Below are positions 24,959-31,370 of a stretch of DNA of 40,331 bases, piece after piece; the stretch's first letter is position 1, and every line of letters begins with the position of its first letter. The notes beneath the pieces were generated by a model, which saw nothing but the letters and a program-made list of their open reading frames with translations, did not search any database and was not told where the DNA came from. The stretch spans positions 1 through 40,331 of the forward strand of contig JAFGNZ010000242.1 of assembly GCA_016926755.1 (NCBI GenBank), in the 5' to 3' direction. The translations under genes were made by a program, and so were the position numbers. Source of the DNA: Myxococcaceae bacterium. Lineage in GTDB: Bacteria > Myxococcota > Myxococcia > Myxococcales > Myxococcaceae.

Positions 24959-25069
24959 ACTTGCTCCTACCGCAAATGTAGAATAGTTCAGGTTTTGCCC
25001 TGTGTCCCCGAACAGGGCGGCCTGCGTCGCGCTCACCCTCTCCGCGAAGCACCTGTCGGAGCAGCCTTC

Positions 25070-28000
25070 ATGCAAGAAGACTACGAGGCGGAGCTGCGCA
25101 TGGCCCTGGCCGAGGGCCTCGTGTCGCGTGAGGAGGCCGCCGCGCTGGGAGAGGAGGCCCGCCGCCTGGGCCGCACCCCCCTGGAGCTGCTCAAGGAGCG
25201 AGGGCAGCTCTCCGACGCCTCCCTGGCCGCCCTGAAGCAGGCCGACCTCGAGTCGACGCTCAAGCCGGGCTCCAAGTTGGATGGCGCCGCCACGCTCGGG
25301 CCGGCGCTCACCTTGAAGGACCGCGACAAGGTGGATCCGCCCTTCCCCATCCCCGGCTGGGATCGCTACCAGGGCGTCCGGTTCCTCGGCCAGGGCGGAA
25401 TGGGCCAGGTCTTCCTCGCGTACGACTTGCGCCTGCGCCGCAACGTCGCGCTCAAGTTCGTGCGCGGGGATGACGCCGAGCTCGTCCGCCGCCTGCTGTC
25501 CGAGGCCCGTGCCCAGGCCCGCGTGGAGCACGAGCGCGTCTGCCAGGTCCACGAGGTGGGCGAAGTCCAGGGCCGCCCGTACATCGCCATGCAGTTCGTG
25601 GATGGCCTGCCCTCGGGGCAGCTGGCCGGCGAGCTCACCGTGGAGCAGAAGGCGCTGGTGCTCCGGGACGCCGCCGAGGGCGTCCACGCCGCCCACCGCG
25701 CGGGCCTCATCCACAGAGATCTCAAGCCCTCCAACATCCTGGTGGAGCGCACCGACGACGGGCGCCTGAAGCCCTTCGTGATGGACTTCGGCCTGGCGCA
25801 CGACTGGAGCGAGAAGGGGGCCACCGCCACCGGCTCGGTGCTGGGCACGCCCCACTACATGGCCCCCGAGCAGGCCCGGGGCGAGGTGGAGCGCCTGGAC
25901 CGGCGCGCGGACGTGTACAGCCTGGGCGCCACGCTCTACTTCCTGCTCACCGGCGAGCCCCCCATCCCCGGCGCCAACGGCCTGGAGGTGCTCAACAACA
26001 TCGCCACCGTCGAGCCCCGCCCGCCGCGCGCCGTGGATCCGAACATCCCCAGCGACCTGGAGGCCATCGTCCTCAAGTGCCTGGAGAAGGACCGCTCGGC
26101 CCGCTATGACTCGGCGCGCGCCCTCATCGAGGATCTGGATCGGTTCCTGGCCGGCGAGCCGGTGCAGGCCCGCCCCACCGGCCTGTGGTACCGGCTGCGC
26201 AAGAAGGCCCGCAAGCACCGGCTCGTGGTGGCCGTGGCCGCCGTGGCCTCGCTCGCCGTGCTCCTCGCCCTGGGCTGGGCCCTCTACACGCACAGCCAGG
26301 CCACCCGGCGCGAGGAGCTCACCCGCCGCTTCACCGAGAAGGTCGAGCACATCGAGGCCCTGACGCGCTTCTCCGGCCTCTCGCCCCTGCATGACACGCG
26401 CGACGACCAGAAGGAGATCCGCGCGCACATGGCCGAGTTGGAGCGGTGGATCCGCGAGGCGGGCGGCCCCCTGGCGGAGGGGCCCGGCAACTACGCCCTG
26501 GCGCGCGGCCACCTGGCGCTGAGGGATGAGGACAAGGCCCGCAAGCACCTGGAGGCTGCCTGGGAGAGCGGCTTCCATGATCCCCGCGTCGCCTATGCGC
26601 TGGCGCTGGTGCTGGGCCACCTGTACCAGGACCAGCTGCTGGAGGTGGAGACCCTGCCCAGCGAGCCCGAGCGAGAGGCCCGCAAGCAGGCGCTCCAGCG
26701 CCGCCTCCGGGACCCGGCCCTGGACTGGCTCCGCCGGAGCAAGGGCGCCGAGGTGCACTCCACCGAGTACGTGGCCGCGCTGATCGCCTTCTACGAGGAG
26801 CGCTTCGACGAGGCCCTGGCCCGGCTGGATGCCCTGGGCAACCGCCTGCCCTGGTTCTACGAGGCGCCCCAGCTGCGCGGCGACATCTTCCGCATGCGGG
26901 CCGCCCGGCGCTGGAACCAGGGGGAGCTGGAGGGCGCGCAGGCCGATCTCGACGCCGGCCGCCGCGCCTACGAGGCCGCCGCCGCCATTGGCGAGAGCGT
27001 GCCCGCCACCTACCAGTCACTGGCGAAGCTCGAGTACACCGCGGTGGTCATCGGGCTCTACAGCACGGGGGACGTGCTCCCCTCCTTCACCCGCGGCACG
27101 CAGGCGGTGGCGCGCTCGCTCCAGGCCTCGCCGGACGATGGCGCCACCCTGATGCTGGAGGCGCGCCTCCATCGCCGCCTCGCGGAGTACCACATGGGGC
27201 AGCTGGGGCGCGGGGAGGATCCGCAGGCCGCGCTCGAGGCGGCCCTCGCGGCCGCCAGCAAGGCGCTCCAGCACGGGCACCCCGCTCGCGACGTCTATCC
27301 GGAGCAGGGGCGCATCCTCTACTCCTGGGCGCGCTTCCTGATGACTCGGGGCCAGGACCCGCGCGAGCGACTGCGCCAGGCCGAGCAGGCCATCCAGGCC
27401 ATCTCCGCGGACGCTCGCGACTACGAGTTCCACTCCGCGCTCGGGCTGATCCTCTCCACCTGGGCCGAGTACGAGGACCGGATCGGCGCCAGCTCCGCGG
27501 AGCACCGCCAGCGCGCCATCGAGTCGCTCCAGGCGGCCACCCGGCTCAACCCCCTCCTCCCGGATGCGTGGATCAACCTGGGCCGCACCTACATCCACCG
27601 GACCGAGAGCGCGTCGCTGGGCAGCCCCGCGGAGCAGCGCCTGCGGCAGGAGCAGGATCTGAAGAGCGCCTGGGAGGCGCTCCAGCGCGCCCTGGACATC
27701 AACCCTCGCCACTACGTGCCCTACATCTACGGGGGACGTGTCCATGCCCAGCGGGCCCGGCTGCACTGGTGTGATGAGGGCGCCGCGCCGCTGCTGGCCA
27801 CGGCCCTGGAGCTCTACCGCAAGGGGCGTGACATCAATCCCAAGCGCCCCTACTTCAACAATGACATCGGCAAGGTCCTGCTGGCGCAGGCCGAGCAGAC
27901 CTGGGACCACGGCGGTGACCCCTTCCCGCTGCTGGACGAGGCCCAGCGCTCCTTCGAGGAGGTGATCCGCGCGGCCCCGCAGCAGCCCTACGGCTACAAC

Positions 28001-28693
28001 AGCCTCGGGATGACCCACCTCTGGCGCGCCACCTACCGACGGGCCCAGCGAGAGGACATGAGCGTGGACGCGCGCGCGACCGTGAGCGCCTTCGAGCAGG
28101 CCATCCAGCGGGCGCCGGATGATCCCTTCTTCGTGACCGATCTGGGAGACATCTTCTCGCTGCTGGCGGAGGCCTCACTGGAGCAGGGCGCGGATCCGAG
28201 CCTCTACCTCCAGCGCGCCGAGAGCGCCTTGCGCGCGGCGCTGGCCCGCAACGCCCAGCAGCCCAGGTCCTGGCTGCTTCTGGGCAGGACCCTCGGCGTC
28301 CACGCGCGCTGGAGGGCGCGCACCGGGACGGCGCGAGAGGAGGACTTCGAGCAGGCCGCGCAGGCCTTCGAGAGGGCGCTCGAGCTGGAGCCCGCCCCCC
28401 GAGAGACTCCGCTCGTCTTCGGCTCCCTGCTCCACGAGTGGGCGCTCTGGAAAAAGGAAGCGGGCCGCGCTCCAGCCCCCCAGCTAGAGCGCGGCCTCGC
28501 CTTGGTGGAAGAGACCCTCTCGAACTGCTCCGACTCCCCCTCCGCGCTGCTGCTTCGAGCGAAGCTGCGGATGATCCAGGCGAGCACGGAGGCTCGCGCT
28601 GATGCGCAGCAGGCGTGGAGGAGGCGGGCCCGAGAGGATCTCTCCCGTGCGCTTGCAAAGAACCCCCACCTGGCGTCGGTCTGGAAGGAGTAG
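25070..28693 (+). CDS. Transmembrane Ser/Thr protein kinase with long TPR-type C-terminal region
   Basis: 1207 residues. Residues 1-60 form a helical N-terminal extension (MALAEGLVSREEAAALGEEA) often seen in myxobacterial kinases. About 100-360 are an active-looking kinase: glycine loop FLGQGGMGQVFLAYD, K129, catalytic IHRDLKPSN with D217, DFG D239, and GTPHYMAPEQA. One membrane segment follows (about 384-405). Residues 410-1207 are almost all helical with repeated Ala/Leu/Tyr spacing (e.g. NPLLPDAWINLGRTYIHR, FNNDIGKVLLAQAEQ, PYGYNSLGMTHLWRATY), consistent with many TPR units outside the inner membrane. It probably senses a protein or cell-envelope signal. ATG 25070 has GGAG about ten bases upstream. 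Its 3' end faces the 36-codon gene at 28724. Confidence 0.93.
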   Translation: MQEDYEAELRMALAEGLVSREEAAALGEEARRLGRTPLELLKERGQLSDASLAALKQADLESTLKPGSKLDGAATLGPALTLKDRDKVDPPFPIPGWDRYQGVRFLGQGGMGQVFLAYDLRLRRNVALKFVRGDDAELVRRLLSEARAQARVEHERVCQVHEVGEVQGRPYIAMQFVDGLPSGQLAGELTVEQKALVLRDAAEGVHAAHRAGLIHRDLKPSNILVERTDDGRLKPFVMDFGLAHDWSEKGATATGSVLGTPHYMAPEQARGEVERLDRRADVYSLGATLYFLLTGEPPIPGANGLEVLNNIATVEPRPPRAVDPNIPSDLEAIVLKCLEKDRSARYDSARALIEDLDRFLAGEPVQARPTGLWYRLRKKARKHRLVVAVAAVASLAVLLALGWALYTHSQATRREELTRRFTEKVEHIEALTRFSGLSPLHDTRDDQKEIRAHMAELERWIREAGGPLAEGPGNYALARGHLALRDEDKARKHLEAAWESGFHDPRVAYALALVLGHLYQDQLLEVETLPSEPEREARKQALQRRLRDPALDWLRRSKGAEVHSTEYVAALIAFYEERFDEALARLDALGNRLPWFYEAPQLRGDIFRMRAARRWNQGELEGAQADLDAGRRAYEAAAAIGESVPATYQSLAKLEYTAVVIGLYSTGDVLPSFTRGTQAVARSLQASPDDGATLMLEARLHRRLAEYHMGQLGRGEDPQAALEAALAAASKALQHGHPARDVYPEQGRILYSWARFLMTRGQDPRERLRQAEQAIQAISADARDYEFHSALGLILSTWAEYEDRIGASSAEHRQRAIESLQAATRLNPLLPDAWINLGRTYIHRTESASLGSPAEQRLRQEQDLKSAWEALQRALDINPRHYVPYIYGGRVHAQRARLHWCDEGAAPLLATALELYRKGRDINPKRPYFNNDIGKVLLAQAEQTWDHGGDPFPLLDEAQRSFEEVIRAAPQQPYGYNSLGMTHLWRATYRRAQREDMSVDARATVSAFEQAIQRAPDDPFFVTDLGDIFSLLAEASLEQGADPSLYLQRAESALRAALARNAQQPRSWLLLGRTLGVHARWRARTGTAREEDFEQAAQAFERALELEPAPRETPLVFGSLLHEWALWKKEAGRAPAPQLERGLALVEETLSNCSDSPSALLLRAKLRMIQASTEARADAQQAWRRRAREDLSRALAKNPHLASVWKE

Positions 28694-28700
28694 CCCCTTC

Positions 28701-28725
28701 AGTCGGCGCCGGCGGGGTGGCGACT
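28701..28725. terminator. Hairpin between kinase and 36-codon gene
   Basis: AGTCGGCGCC and GGTGGCGACT pair over ten positions with one mismatch and one G-T pair, loop GGCGG. It lies 8 bases after the kinase stop and overlaps the convergent small gene's stop codon by two bases, so it could end both transcripts. There is no T-run. Confidence 0.4.
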
Positions 28726-28834
28726 AACCGCCCACCACGGGATCTTCGGGATCCTTGCCGCCGTTGGCGGTCGTACCGCCGCCGGTGCCAGTGTTGGTGC
28801 CGCTCGTCGTCGTGGTGTCGGTCTCGTCAGCCAT
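28724..28834 (-). CDS. Thr/Gly-rich 36-residue protein under a sigma-54 promoter
   Basis: ATG 28834 has AGGGGG seven bases upstream and the frame ends at TAG 28724-28726. The chain begins MADETDTTTTSGTNTGTGGG and ends KDPEDPVVGG, with 10 Thr, 9 Gly, one Lys and no aromatic residue or cysteine. Most third codon positions are C or G, supporting coding. There is no signal peptide or membrane segment, and it is probably disordered. Upstream lie a matching -24/-12 element (28957-28972) and a CGACAC repeat array, then the gene for an FHA-like sigma-54 activator. It could be a phosphorylation target, a signal or a precursor peptide; these are guesses. I know no family for it. Confidence 0.6.
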   Translation of the reverse strand: MADETDTTTTSGTNTGTGGGTTANGGKDPEDPVVGG

Positions 28835-28956: not shown

Positions 28957-28972
28957 AGCAACGGCGATGCCA
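28957..28972 (-). promoter_or_regulatory. Sigma-54 (-24/-12) promoter
   Basis: Read on the minus strand: TGGCAT, five bases, TTGCT. GG and GC are exactly 10 bases apart, and both halves match the consensus TGGCAC-N5-TTGCA/T closely. Transcription would start near 28947, giving a leader of about 113 bases to ATG 28834. An activator gene of the right class ends about 150 bp upstream. Confidence 0.72.
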
Positions 28973-29030
28973 GCGATAAATCCCTGGAAAGACGGCCGCT
29001 TTTACTGCTCTGTCAGAGCTGTCTGCCAGG

Positions 29031-29104
29031 CGACACGGTCGAAGTTGGGTCTTCGACACGTCGGACGGCCCGCCCCGACACGTCGGCCGCGAGTCGACAC
29101 GCGA
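29031..29104 (-). promoter_or_regulatory. CGACAC repeat array, putative activator binding sites
   Basis: CGACAC occurs at 29031, 29054, 29076 and 29095 (steps of 23, 22 and 19 bases, about two helical turns). The second and third copies are CGACACGTCGG, a small dyad (CGAC-AC-GTCG); the first is CGACACGGTCG. A further perfect inverted repeat GTCGAAG / CTTCGAC lies at 29038-29057. The array is 59-130 bp upstream of the -24 element, the usual place for enhancer sites of sigma-54 activators. Confidence 0.6.
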
Positions 29105-29118
29105 GCCTGCCCATGGGA

Positions 29119-30768
29119 TCAGCTCTCATGGGACTCCAGGCCCAGCTCCTTGATGCGGCGGCCGAGCGCGCGCTTGGAGACCTCGAGGCGCTGGGCCATG
29201 GCCTCCAGGTCCCCCGCGCACTCCTGGAAGCAGCGGGTGATCTCCTCCACGGTCAGGTCCCCCGCGGTGCGGATGTTGGGGCTCTTGTCGATCAAGTCGT
29301 AGATGGAGGAGCGGGGGATGCTCAGCTTGTCCGCGGCGGCCTTGAGGTCCCACTCGCTCTCGCGCAGGGCGGTGAGCAGCTCGGGCTCGGAGACATCCGA
29401 GGCCTTGCGGCGGGCGGCGGGCTTCGGCTCGAGCGGGGGCTTGGGCTCGGGCGAGGGCTTGAGCATCACCTTCACCTCGGGCGTGGGCGCGGAGACGGGG
29501 CGGCCGGGGCGGGGGCCCATGCCCGTCTCCAGCTCCTTCTCCAGCCGGGGATCCAGGCGCAGCCGCGCGTGCCCTCGGCTGCCGATGATCAGCTGGCGCG
29601 TCAGGTTGCGCAGCTGGCGGATGTTGCCGGGCCACCCGTAGCGCACCAGCCGCGCGGCCAGCGGCGCCGGCAGCCACGGCTCGGTGGACGAGTCCTCCGG
29701 CCTCAGCCGCCAGGCCTCGCCGATGGCCTCCAGCTCCTCGCGCGCGAAGTGATGGAACAGCAGCCCGATGTCCTCTCGCCGCTCCCGCAGCGGGGGCACG
29801 CGGATCTCATACCCCGCCAGCCGGTGCAGCAGCGGCGCCTTGAAGCGCCCCTCCTGGATCTGCTGCTCCAGCTGCGCGTCCGTGGCGGCCACCAGCCGGA
29901 CGTCCACCTTCACGGGCGTGCGCTCGCCCACCGGGTAGATCTCCCGCGTCTCCAGCACCCGCAGCAGCATCACCTGCACCTCGGGCGGCGCCTCGCCCAC
30001 CTCGTCCAGGAACAGCGTCCCGTCGTGCGCGGCGCGGAAGAAGCCCTCGCGGTCCTTCACCGAGCCGGTGTAGGCCCCCTTGCTGGCGCCGAACAGCTCC
30101 GCGGCCGCCAGCTCCTTGGGGATGGCGCCCAGGTTCACGCTCACGAAGACCTTGTCGCGCCGCACGCTGCGCTTGTGGATGGCCTGGGCGATCAGCTCCT
30201 TGCCCGAGCCCGTCTCGCCCCGCACGAGCACCGGCACGTCCAGGTCCGCCACCTGCTCGATGTGGTGGCGCACCTGCTGGATGCCCACGCTGGTGCCCAC
30301 CATGCCCAGCGCGTCCACGGCCGCGCTCGCGGCAGGGTCCGCCCAGTGCAGCAGCACCACCACGCGCTCGGCCAGCTCCAGCGCCACGCCCACCGCCAGC
30401 TCCTCGGGGGAGAACTCCCAGGGAGCCTTCAGCACCTCGCCCGCAAGGTGCACCTTGCTGCCATCTCCCGGCGTCAACCGGACGCCCCCCTCCCGGGCCG
30501 CGGAGAACACCAGCGGCTTGCGGCTCAGGAAGGGATCCGCCAGGGGCGCGCCCAGCACGGCGTCCGGGCGCATGAAGTCCGGGGAGTTGCGCGAGATGGA
30601 CACCTCGCGGCCGGAGAAGAGCGCGTCCAGCAGCAGCCGCTCGCCCACGCGGTGGGACATGGGGTGCGAGACGATGGTCAGCGCCGGAACCAGCCGGGGA
30701 GCTGACTCGCTGACGTTCCGCTGCTTCACGCCGATCGTGGAGTCGTCGGCGAAACTTCCCTCGCGCAT
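29119..30768 (-). CDS. Sigma-54-dependent activator with FHA-like N-terminus and tandem HTH
   Basis: 549 residues from ATG 30768. Residues 24-140 look like a divergent FHA domain (LLLDALFSGREVSISRNSPD, then DPFLSRKPLVFSA), a fold that binds phosphothreonine. Residues 158-385 are the AAA+ activator core: Walker A GETGSGKE (184-191), sigma-54 contact loop GAYTGS (231-236) instead of GAFTGA, Walker B LFLDEVGE (252-259) and arginine-finger region FKAPLLHRLAGY. After a Pro/Lys linker the C-terminus carries two Fis-like helix-turn-helix units (DLKAAADKLSIPRSSIYDLI and DLEAMAQRLEVSKRALGRRI). It should activate sigma-54 RNA polymerase when signalled, probably by a Ser/Thr kinase. Its nearest candidate target is the promoter just downstream at 28957. 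Confidence 0.94.
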   Translation of the reverse strand: MREGSFADDSTIGVKQRNVSESAPRLVPALTIVSHPMSHRVGERLLLDALFSGREVSISRNSPDFMRPDAVLGAPLADPFLSRKPLVFSAAREGGVRLTPGDGSKVHLAGEVLKAPWEFSPEELAVGVALELAERVVVLLHWADPAASAAVDALGMVGTSVGIQQVRHHIEQVADLDVPVLVRGETGSGKELIAQAIHKRSVRRDKVFVSVNLGAIPKELAAAELFGASKGAYTGSVKDREGFFRAAHDGTLFLDEVGEAPPEVQVMLLRVLETREIYPVGERTPVKVDVRLVAATDAQLEQQIQEGRFKAPLLHRLAGYEIRVPPLRERREDIGLLFHHFAREELEAIGEAWRLRPEDSSTEPWLPAPLAARLVRYGWPGNIRQLRNLTRQLIIGSRGHARLRLDPRLEKELETGMGPRPGRPVSAPTPEVKVMLKPSPEPKPPLEPKPAARRKASDVSEPELLTALRESEWDLKAAADKLSIPRSSIYDLIDKSPNIRTAGDLTVEEITRCFQECAGDLEAMAQRLEVSKRALGRRIKELGLESHES

Positions 30769-30826
30769 GGAGTGATCCGCTCCGGGTGACTGCCTTCCCA
30801 GTTCCGGCACTGTACCGGACACAGGG

Positions 30827-30842: not shown

Positions 30843-31004
30843 TCCGTGGGCCGCCCGGCCTGGCCCAGCGCCACCCTCCGGCCCTGCCCCAGAGGACAGG
30901 GTCGTGTTGCCGCGAGAACCCCAGCGGGCGCCCGGGCGGTAGGAATCCGACAGAGCCCCTGCCCGAGCACTCCCCTGGACGAGAAGGCTGCCTACAATCC
31001 CCAT

Positions 31005-31370
31005 GTGAGTACCGGTGAACATCGAGGCAGCGTTCTCATCGTCGAGGATGATGAGGACATCCGTGCGGCCATGGCCGAGCTCCTCGAGAGCGAGGGCTTC
31101 GACGTCGCCGTGGCCGCCAACGGTCAGGAAGGGTTGGAGCTGCTGGGGCAGATGGACCAGCCGTGTCTGGTGCTCCTGGATCTGATGATGCCGGTGATGA
31201 ATGGCGAGGACTTCCTGCGGCACGTGCGGGAGGATCCGGCCCTCCGCCTCACCCCCGTCATCATCGTCACGGCCAGCGGGCTGACGCCCCTGCCGGGCAC
31301 CCAGGGCCTGCTGAAGAAGCCCTTCGAGATGAATGACCTGTTCGCCACCGTCTCCGCGCACTGCCCCTGA
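31005..31370 (+). CDS. Single-domain response regulator
   Basis: 121 residues, a stand-alone receiver domain. The acidic pair is in VLIVEDDEDIRAAM, the phospho-acceptor in LVLLDLMMPVMNGEDFL, the conserved Thr in IIVTASG and the Lys in LLKKPFEMNDL. The start is GTG 31005; the ATG two bases earlier is out of frame and stops at once. There is no output domain, so it acts through a partner protein or as a phosphate relay. It is divergent from the sigma-54 activator gene and convergent with mobA. The cognate kinase is not adjacent. Confidence 0.9.
   Translation: MSTGEHRGSVLIVEDDEDIRAAMAELLESEGFDVAVAANGQEGLELLGQMDQPCLVLLDLMMPVMNGEDFLRHVREDPALRLTPVIIVTASGLTPLPGTQGLLKKPFEMNDLFATVSAHCP

Follow-up and report, generated by a model that had tools for sequence, protein, structure and literature searches.

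Background

NtrC-type enhancer-binding proteins (EBPs) act at dyads that occur in pairs some 100 bp ahead of a −24/−12 promoter, the activator being an AAA+ protein with a Fis-type HTH. Myxobacteria have many sigma-54 activators, the targets of which are mostly unknown. FHA-domain EBPs of Myxococcus xanthus were reportedly the subject of a paper by Jelsbak et al. in PNAS in 2005, which is cited in PMC12288465. For Nla28 of M. xanthus, imperfect 8-bp tandem repeats CT(C/G)CG(C/G)AG have been described, together with a regulon that is put at well over 100 genes (PMC9765219).

The locus considered here lies in a window of 40,331 nucleotides, this being the whole stretch of DNA that was analysed. 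It resembles the upstream activating sequence (UAS) of NtrC-type systems in its paired dyads, −24/−12 promoter, and AAA+ activator with Fis-type HTH, but differs in that palindromes of 10–12 bp with a 2-bp centre recur every 21–22 bp and are tighter than classical EBP sites, the activator carries two tandem HTHs, and the dyad type is readable from the first of them (HTH1). With Nla28 it has in common a myxobacterial EBP and tandem sites upstream of sigma-54 promoters, binding here being predicted, whereas the palindromes, the FHA domain, and the apparently single target set it apart. The presence of an FHA domain in a sigma-54 activator is also a likeness to the M. xanthus proteins mentioned above. 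A literature search, mostly outside subscription papers, found no description of the motif or of the recognition code proposed below.

Structure of the Repeat Region and Promoter

The original prediction described four CGACAC units at steps of 23, 22, and 19 bases, two of them alike over 11 bases. All of this is present in the sequence: the hexamer occurs on the plus strand at positions 29031, 29054, 29076, and 29095, and CGACACGTCGG is found exactly at both 29054 and 29076 (11-bp identity). Taken by itself, the hexamer shows no enrichment in the window (26 copies vs 25 expected), and it is the clustering that is unusual; by our own Poisson estimate, four copies on one strand within 70 bp would be found anywhere in the window with a probability of about 1e-4 or less.

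The view of CGACAC as the repeat unit had to be given up: a palindrome describes the region better. Of the four copies, just two are kept in all orthologs. The true unit is the 10–12 bp palindrome CCGAC-AC-GTCGG, which occurs in good form twice, 22 bp apart, the two copies reading CCGAC-AC-GTCGG and TCGAC-AC-GTCGG. The promoter-proximal dyad 2 (positions 29053–29064, minus strand, CCGACGTGTCGA) is centred at about −112 relative to the inferred transcription start and stands in the same place in 8/8 orthologs with invariant arms. The distal dyad 1 (positions 29075–29086, minus strand), one step of 22 bp away, is the perfect palindrome CCGAC-GT-GTCGG and is found in 8/8 orthologs, with one mismatch in two of them.

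Both outer CGACAC units are degenerate. The distal one is a half-site, GTGTCGAC (positions 29093–29100, minus strand), about 19 bp from dyad 1, and a similar unit is present in the three nearest orthologs. The promoter-proximal one, CGAC-CGT-GTCG with a 3-bp spacer (positions 29031–29041, minus strand, step of about 23), is private to the window. The same is true of the inverted repeat GTCGAAG (29038–29044)/CTTCGAC (29051–29057), which the original prediction had listed as a further dyad: it is perfect in the window sequence and spans 29038–29057, where it is made of one arm of dyad 2 and one arm of the degenerate unit, but neither it nor the degenerate unit was found in the ortholog alignment, and it was rejected as a conserved site.

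The array was correctly placed between the stop codon of the activator (29119–29121) and the −24/−12 element (28972–28957 on the minus strand). This perfect element, TGGCATCGCCGTTGCT (positions 28957–28972, minus strand), has the form TGGCA-N6-TTGC with GG and GC 10 bp apart and is kept in 8/8 orthologs; it lies about 80 bp past dyad 2 and is followed by a ribosome-binding site and then by a 36-aa ORF. The transcription start inferred from it is at about 28946, and the repeated dyads fall within the range of roughly 80–200 bp upstream of a −24/−12 promoter. The rpoN gene was found in the genome (PF04552, E 1e-64).

While the predicted sigma-54 promoter stands, its putative target, the 36-aa ORF MADETDTTTTSGTNTGTGGGTTANGGKDPEDPVVGG (positions 28724–28834, minus strand), is an addition of the present analysis. 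A Thr/Gly-rich ORF occupies the same place in 8/8 orthologs, with product lengths of 36–46 aa across the eight genomes. Searches of Pfam and NCBIfam gave no match for the 36-aa product, and its composition suggests a disordered peptide. Among 96 genomes it was found only beside the orthologous activator, the search giving matches in the seven other genomes with this activator and one weak partial match (E 0.04), with the window copy itself below the threshold. At one related locus, a 54-aa target peptide (L101:5937–6098, plus strand) ending in GGMNDPPVGT shows a faint likeness to the end of the window peptide, GGKDPEDPVVGG.

Domain Organization of the Activator

The neighbouring activator (positions 29119–30822, minus strand) consists of an FHA-like domain (residues ~42–165), a typical sigma-54 AAA+ domain (PF00158, E 5.7e-60), and two tandem Fis-type HTHs (residues ~479–513 and ~525–560). 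The Pfam FHA sequence model did not match the N-terminus; when this domain was modelled alone (AlphaFold2, mean pLDDT 88), the top matches in the PDB were FHA domains, with Z up to 12.2, and, with regard to possible phosphothreonine binding, an invariant S-R pair is retained. The two HTH units that had been claimed for the activator are borne out both by HTH_8, which matches two stretches of the protein and is matched by all 38 members, and by the AlphaFold2 model, in which two three-helix units are well predicted at the C-terminus. The second HTH is nearly invariant among related activators. A scan of named genomes for the activator gave one locus, in Hyalangium versicolor.

Convergent with the 36-aa ORF lies a gene for a Ser/Thr kinase with TPRs (positions 24995–28693, plus strand), a likely signalling partner of the activator; no palindrome pair was found ahead of the kinase gene in the window. 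A single-domain response regulator, divergent from the activator (window positions 31003–31370, plus strand), is kept in all eight orthologs.

Conservation and Rarity of the Palindrome Pair

The ortholog set comprises eight loci, the window and seven other genomes, from two genera, with activators that are 72–85% identical. The gene order, with the kinase and response regulator on one strand and the small ORF and activator between them on the other, is kept in 8/8 loci. In the alignment, the arms of both dyads and the −24/−12 element form nearly invariant islands, the two central bases of dyad 2 vary (GT, AC, AT, GC), and the distance from the end of dyad 2 to the −24 element is 79–81 bp in 8/8 loci. 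A counterpart of the distal half-site occurs at 19–21 bp in G040, G041, and G042 and is absent in G036–G039. Lack of conservation in orthologous regions had been named as grounds for abandoning the original prediction; the palindrome pair is kept in 8/8 loci. Four Stigmatella-side orthologs (L064, L065, L066, L067) contain a palindromic tract GGGGGGG/CCCCCCC just past dyad 2, between UAS and promoter, which is absent from the subgroup of the window.

Pattern searches of the 9.6-Mb genome gave 58 occurrences of CGACRYGTCG versus 207 of the reversed control. The exact pair at 20–24 bp was found once, at this locus, but the reversed control pattern was also found once, so that the argument rests on the position of the pair and not on its bare count. 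With two mismatches allowed and a spacing of 22 bp, there were three other places versus 19 for the control. The other ground named for abandoning the original prediction, a motif as common elsewhere as expected by chance, likewise did not refute it: the palindrome pair is not scattered through the genome. For the 96 family genomes, ~75 exact pairs were listed; by hand count, 29 of these are no more than 5 kb from a family activator, with ~0.1–0.2 expected by area. The activator appears to be dedicated to one site in its own genome, where its regulon may consist of one small gene. It should be noted that at L042, L044, L045, and L047 (~1501–1534) a conserved palindrome pair and a CGGCAC..CTTGCT promoter occur with no listed activator nearby; these are possible further regulon members.

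Correspondence between the First HTH and the Dyad Type

Across 90 related activator loci, in which the dyad class was predicted from HTH1, dyads of the own class were spaced at steps of 21 (24 cases), 22 (36), 23 (5), 20 (4), and 42–43 bp (8), and almost none were found at other steps; control motifs of the wrong class gave near zero pairs, and with ten scrambled control motifs, a motif plus promoter turned up in 0–2 of the 90 loci. All classes share the core ACRYGT and differ in the outer two bases, with IxRxSxYD in HTH1 corresponding to CGAC, IHRxSxYD to CCAC, and non-D to TGAC. The classes had already come to attention in some of these loci before the formal count, which gave D/CGAC in 42/56, H/CCAC in 13/16, and non-D/TGAC in 8/18 loci, that is, 63 on the diagonal and one off it; under the scan rules, the own-class pair was missing in 27/90 loci. 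On an activator tree built without the HTHs, the association needs just two changes, so that two independent switches, not many, speak for the code.

Most of the promoters of this kind are closely followed by a plausible ORF, and kinase homology is found close to 73/90 of the related activators. In three loci of one genus (L032, L033, L034, ~1501–1531), the TPR kinase gene is immediately preceded by a second palindrome pair with a −24/−12 element, which suggests positive feedback in that genus.

Helical phasing, which the original prediction had claimed for the repeats, was found in the distances between UAS and promoter. At related loci, the spacing between the proximal dyad and the −24 element falls into groups near 40, 50, 61, 72, and 81 bp, a periodicity of ~10.5–11 bp, with a vector length R = 0.66 at a period of 10.8–11 on 21 clusters (formed at 80% identity); 5 of 5000 random sets were as high over periods of 8–13. 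These phased distances support looping on a fixed face of the DNA.

Alternative Explanations and the Proposed Model

The repeats very probably serve the sigma-54-dependent promoter of the 36-aa gene as its upstream activating sequence (enhancer) and are bound there by the neighbouring activator. The prediction of enhancer sites for this activator is supported by the pair kept in 8/8 loci, by the dyad type that tracks HTH1 over 90 loci, and by the phased distances. The intergenic position of the palindromes would be open to any regulator, and they might instead be sites of a different, global regulator, with the neighbouring activator acting elsewhere; we consider this improbable, given that the dyad class agrees with that of the activator beside it at 63 loci, against one exception, and that the exact pair, unlike the site of a global regulator, is found once in the genome.

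It is still less probable that the repeats belong to the 3′ end of the activator mRNA, as a terminator or RNA stem-loops. They do begin ~35 bp past the end of the activator gene, and hairpins can arise from inverted repeats, but the RNA fold of 29020–29125 is no better than that of shuffled sequences (z 0.24), the 2-nt loop of the palindrome cannot close, and at related loci dyad pairs of this kind are found ahead of the activator, ahead of the kinase gene, or kilobases away. Least credible of all is that a hexamer common in GC-rich DNA clustered here by chance: CGACAC is not enriched in the window and the outer two units are not kept in all orthologs, both of which agree with it, yet both palindromes are kept at a fixed spacing and distance in eight genomes of two genera, and for the two central units this conservation refutes it.

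Under the enhancer model, a Ser/Thr kinase, be it the adjacent TPR kinase or another, would signal to the activator through the FHA domain, as the gene neighbourhood suggests. Sequence covariation points to the activator HTHs binding both palindromes, two helical turns apart, on one face of the DNA, which would hold the AAA+ part some 100 bp ahead of the promoter, with the two in helical phase. The AAA+ part would then remodel sigma-54 RNA polymerase at this promoter, the known mechanism of this class of activators, and the 36-aa gene would thereby be activated.

Beyond this locus, we think it rather probable, though with appreciable doubt, that a simple recognition code applies across a large myxobacterial family of tandem-HTH sigma-54 activators of the FHA type. 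According to this code, the core ACRYGT would be shared, and two residues in the recognition helix of HTH1 would determine the outer two bases of every half-site (P/A/S + D for CG, H + D for CC, and non-D for TG). Every activator would be linked to a small target gene of its own, and the two, often joined by a kinase, would make up a self-contained cassette that duplicates. Should the code hold, the family's target promoters could be read from sequence, one or two residues could switch specificity, and a testable model would be available for the rise of new signalling cassettes by duplication.

As for the targets at related loci, a Pfam search of ten of them gave nothing beyond a sub-threshold aegerolysin match. 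One group of promoters drives a 126–127-aa protein with this weak resemblance. Downstream of many CGAC-class promoters, a 127–131-aa protein (MPxVSxxKP...) without a Pfam match recurs. The loci noted for these two kinds of target are L102:5810–6190 (minus strand), L105, L112, L114, L116, and L118:3596–3976 (plus strand).
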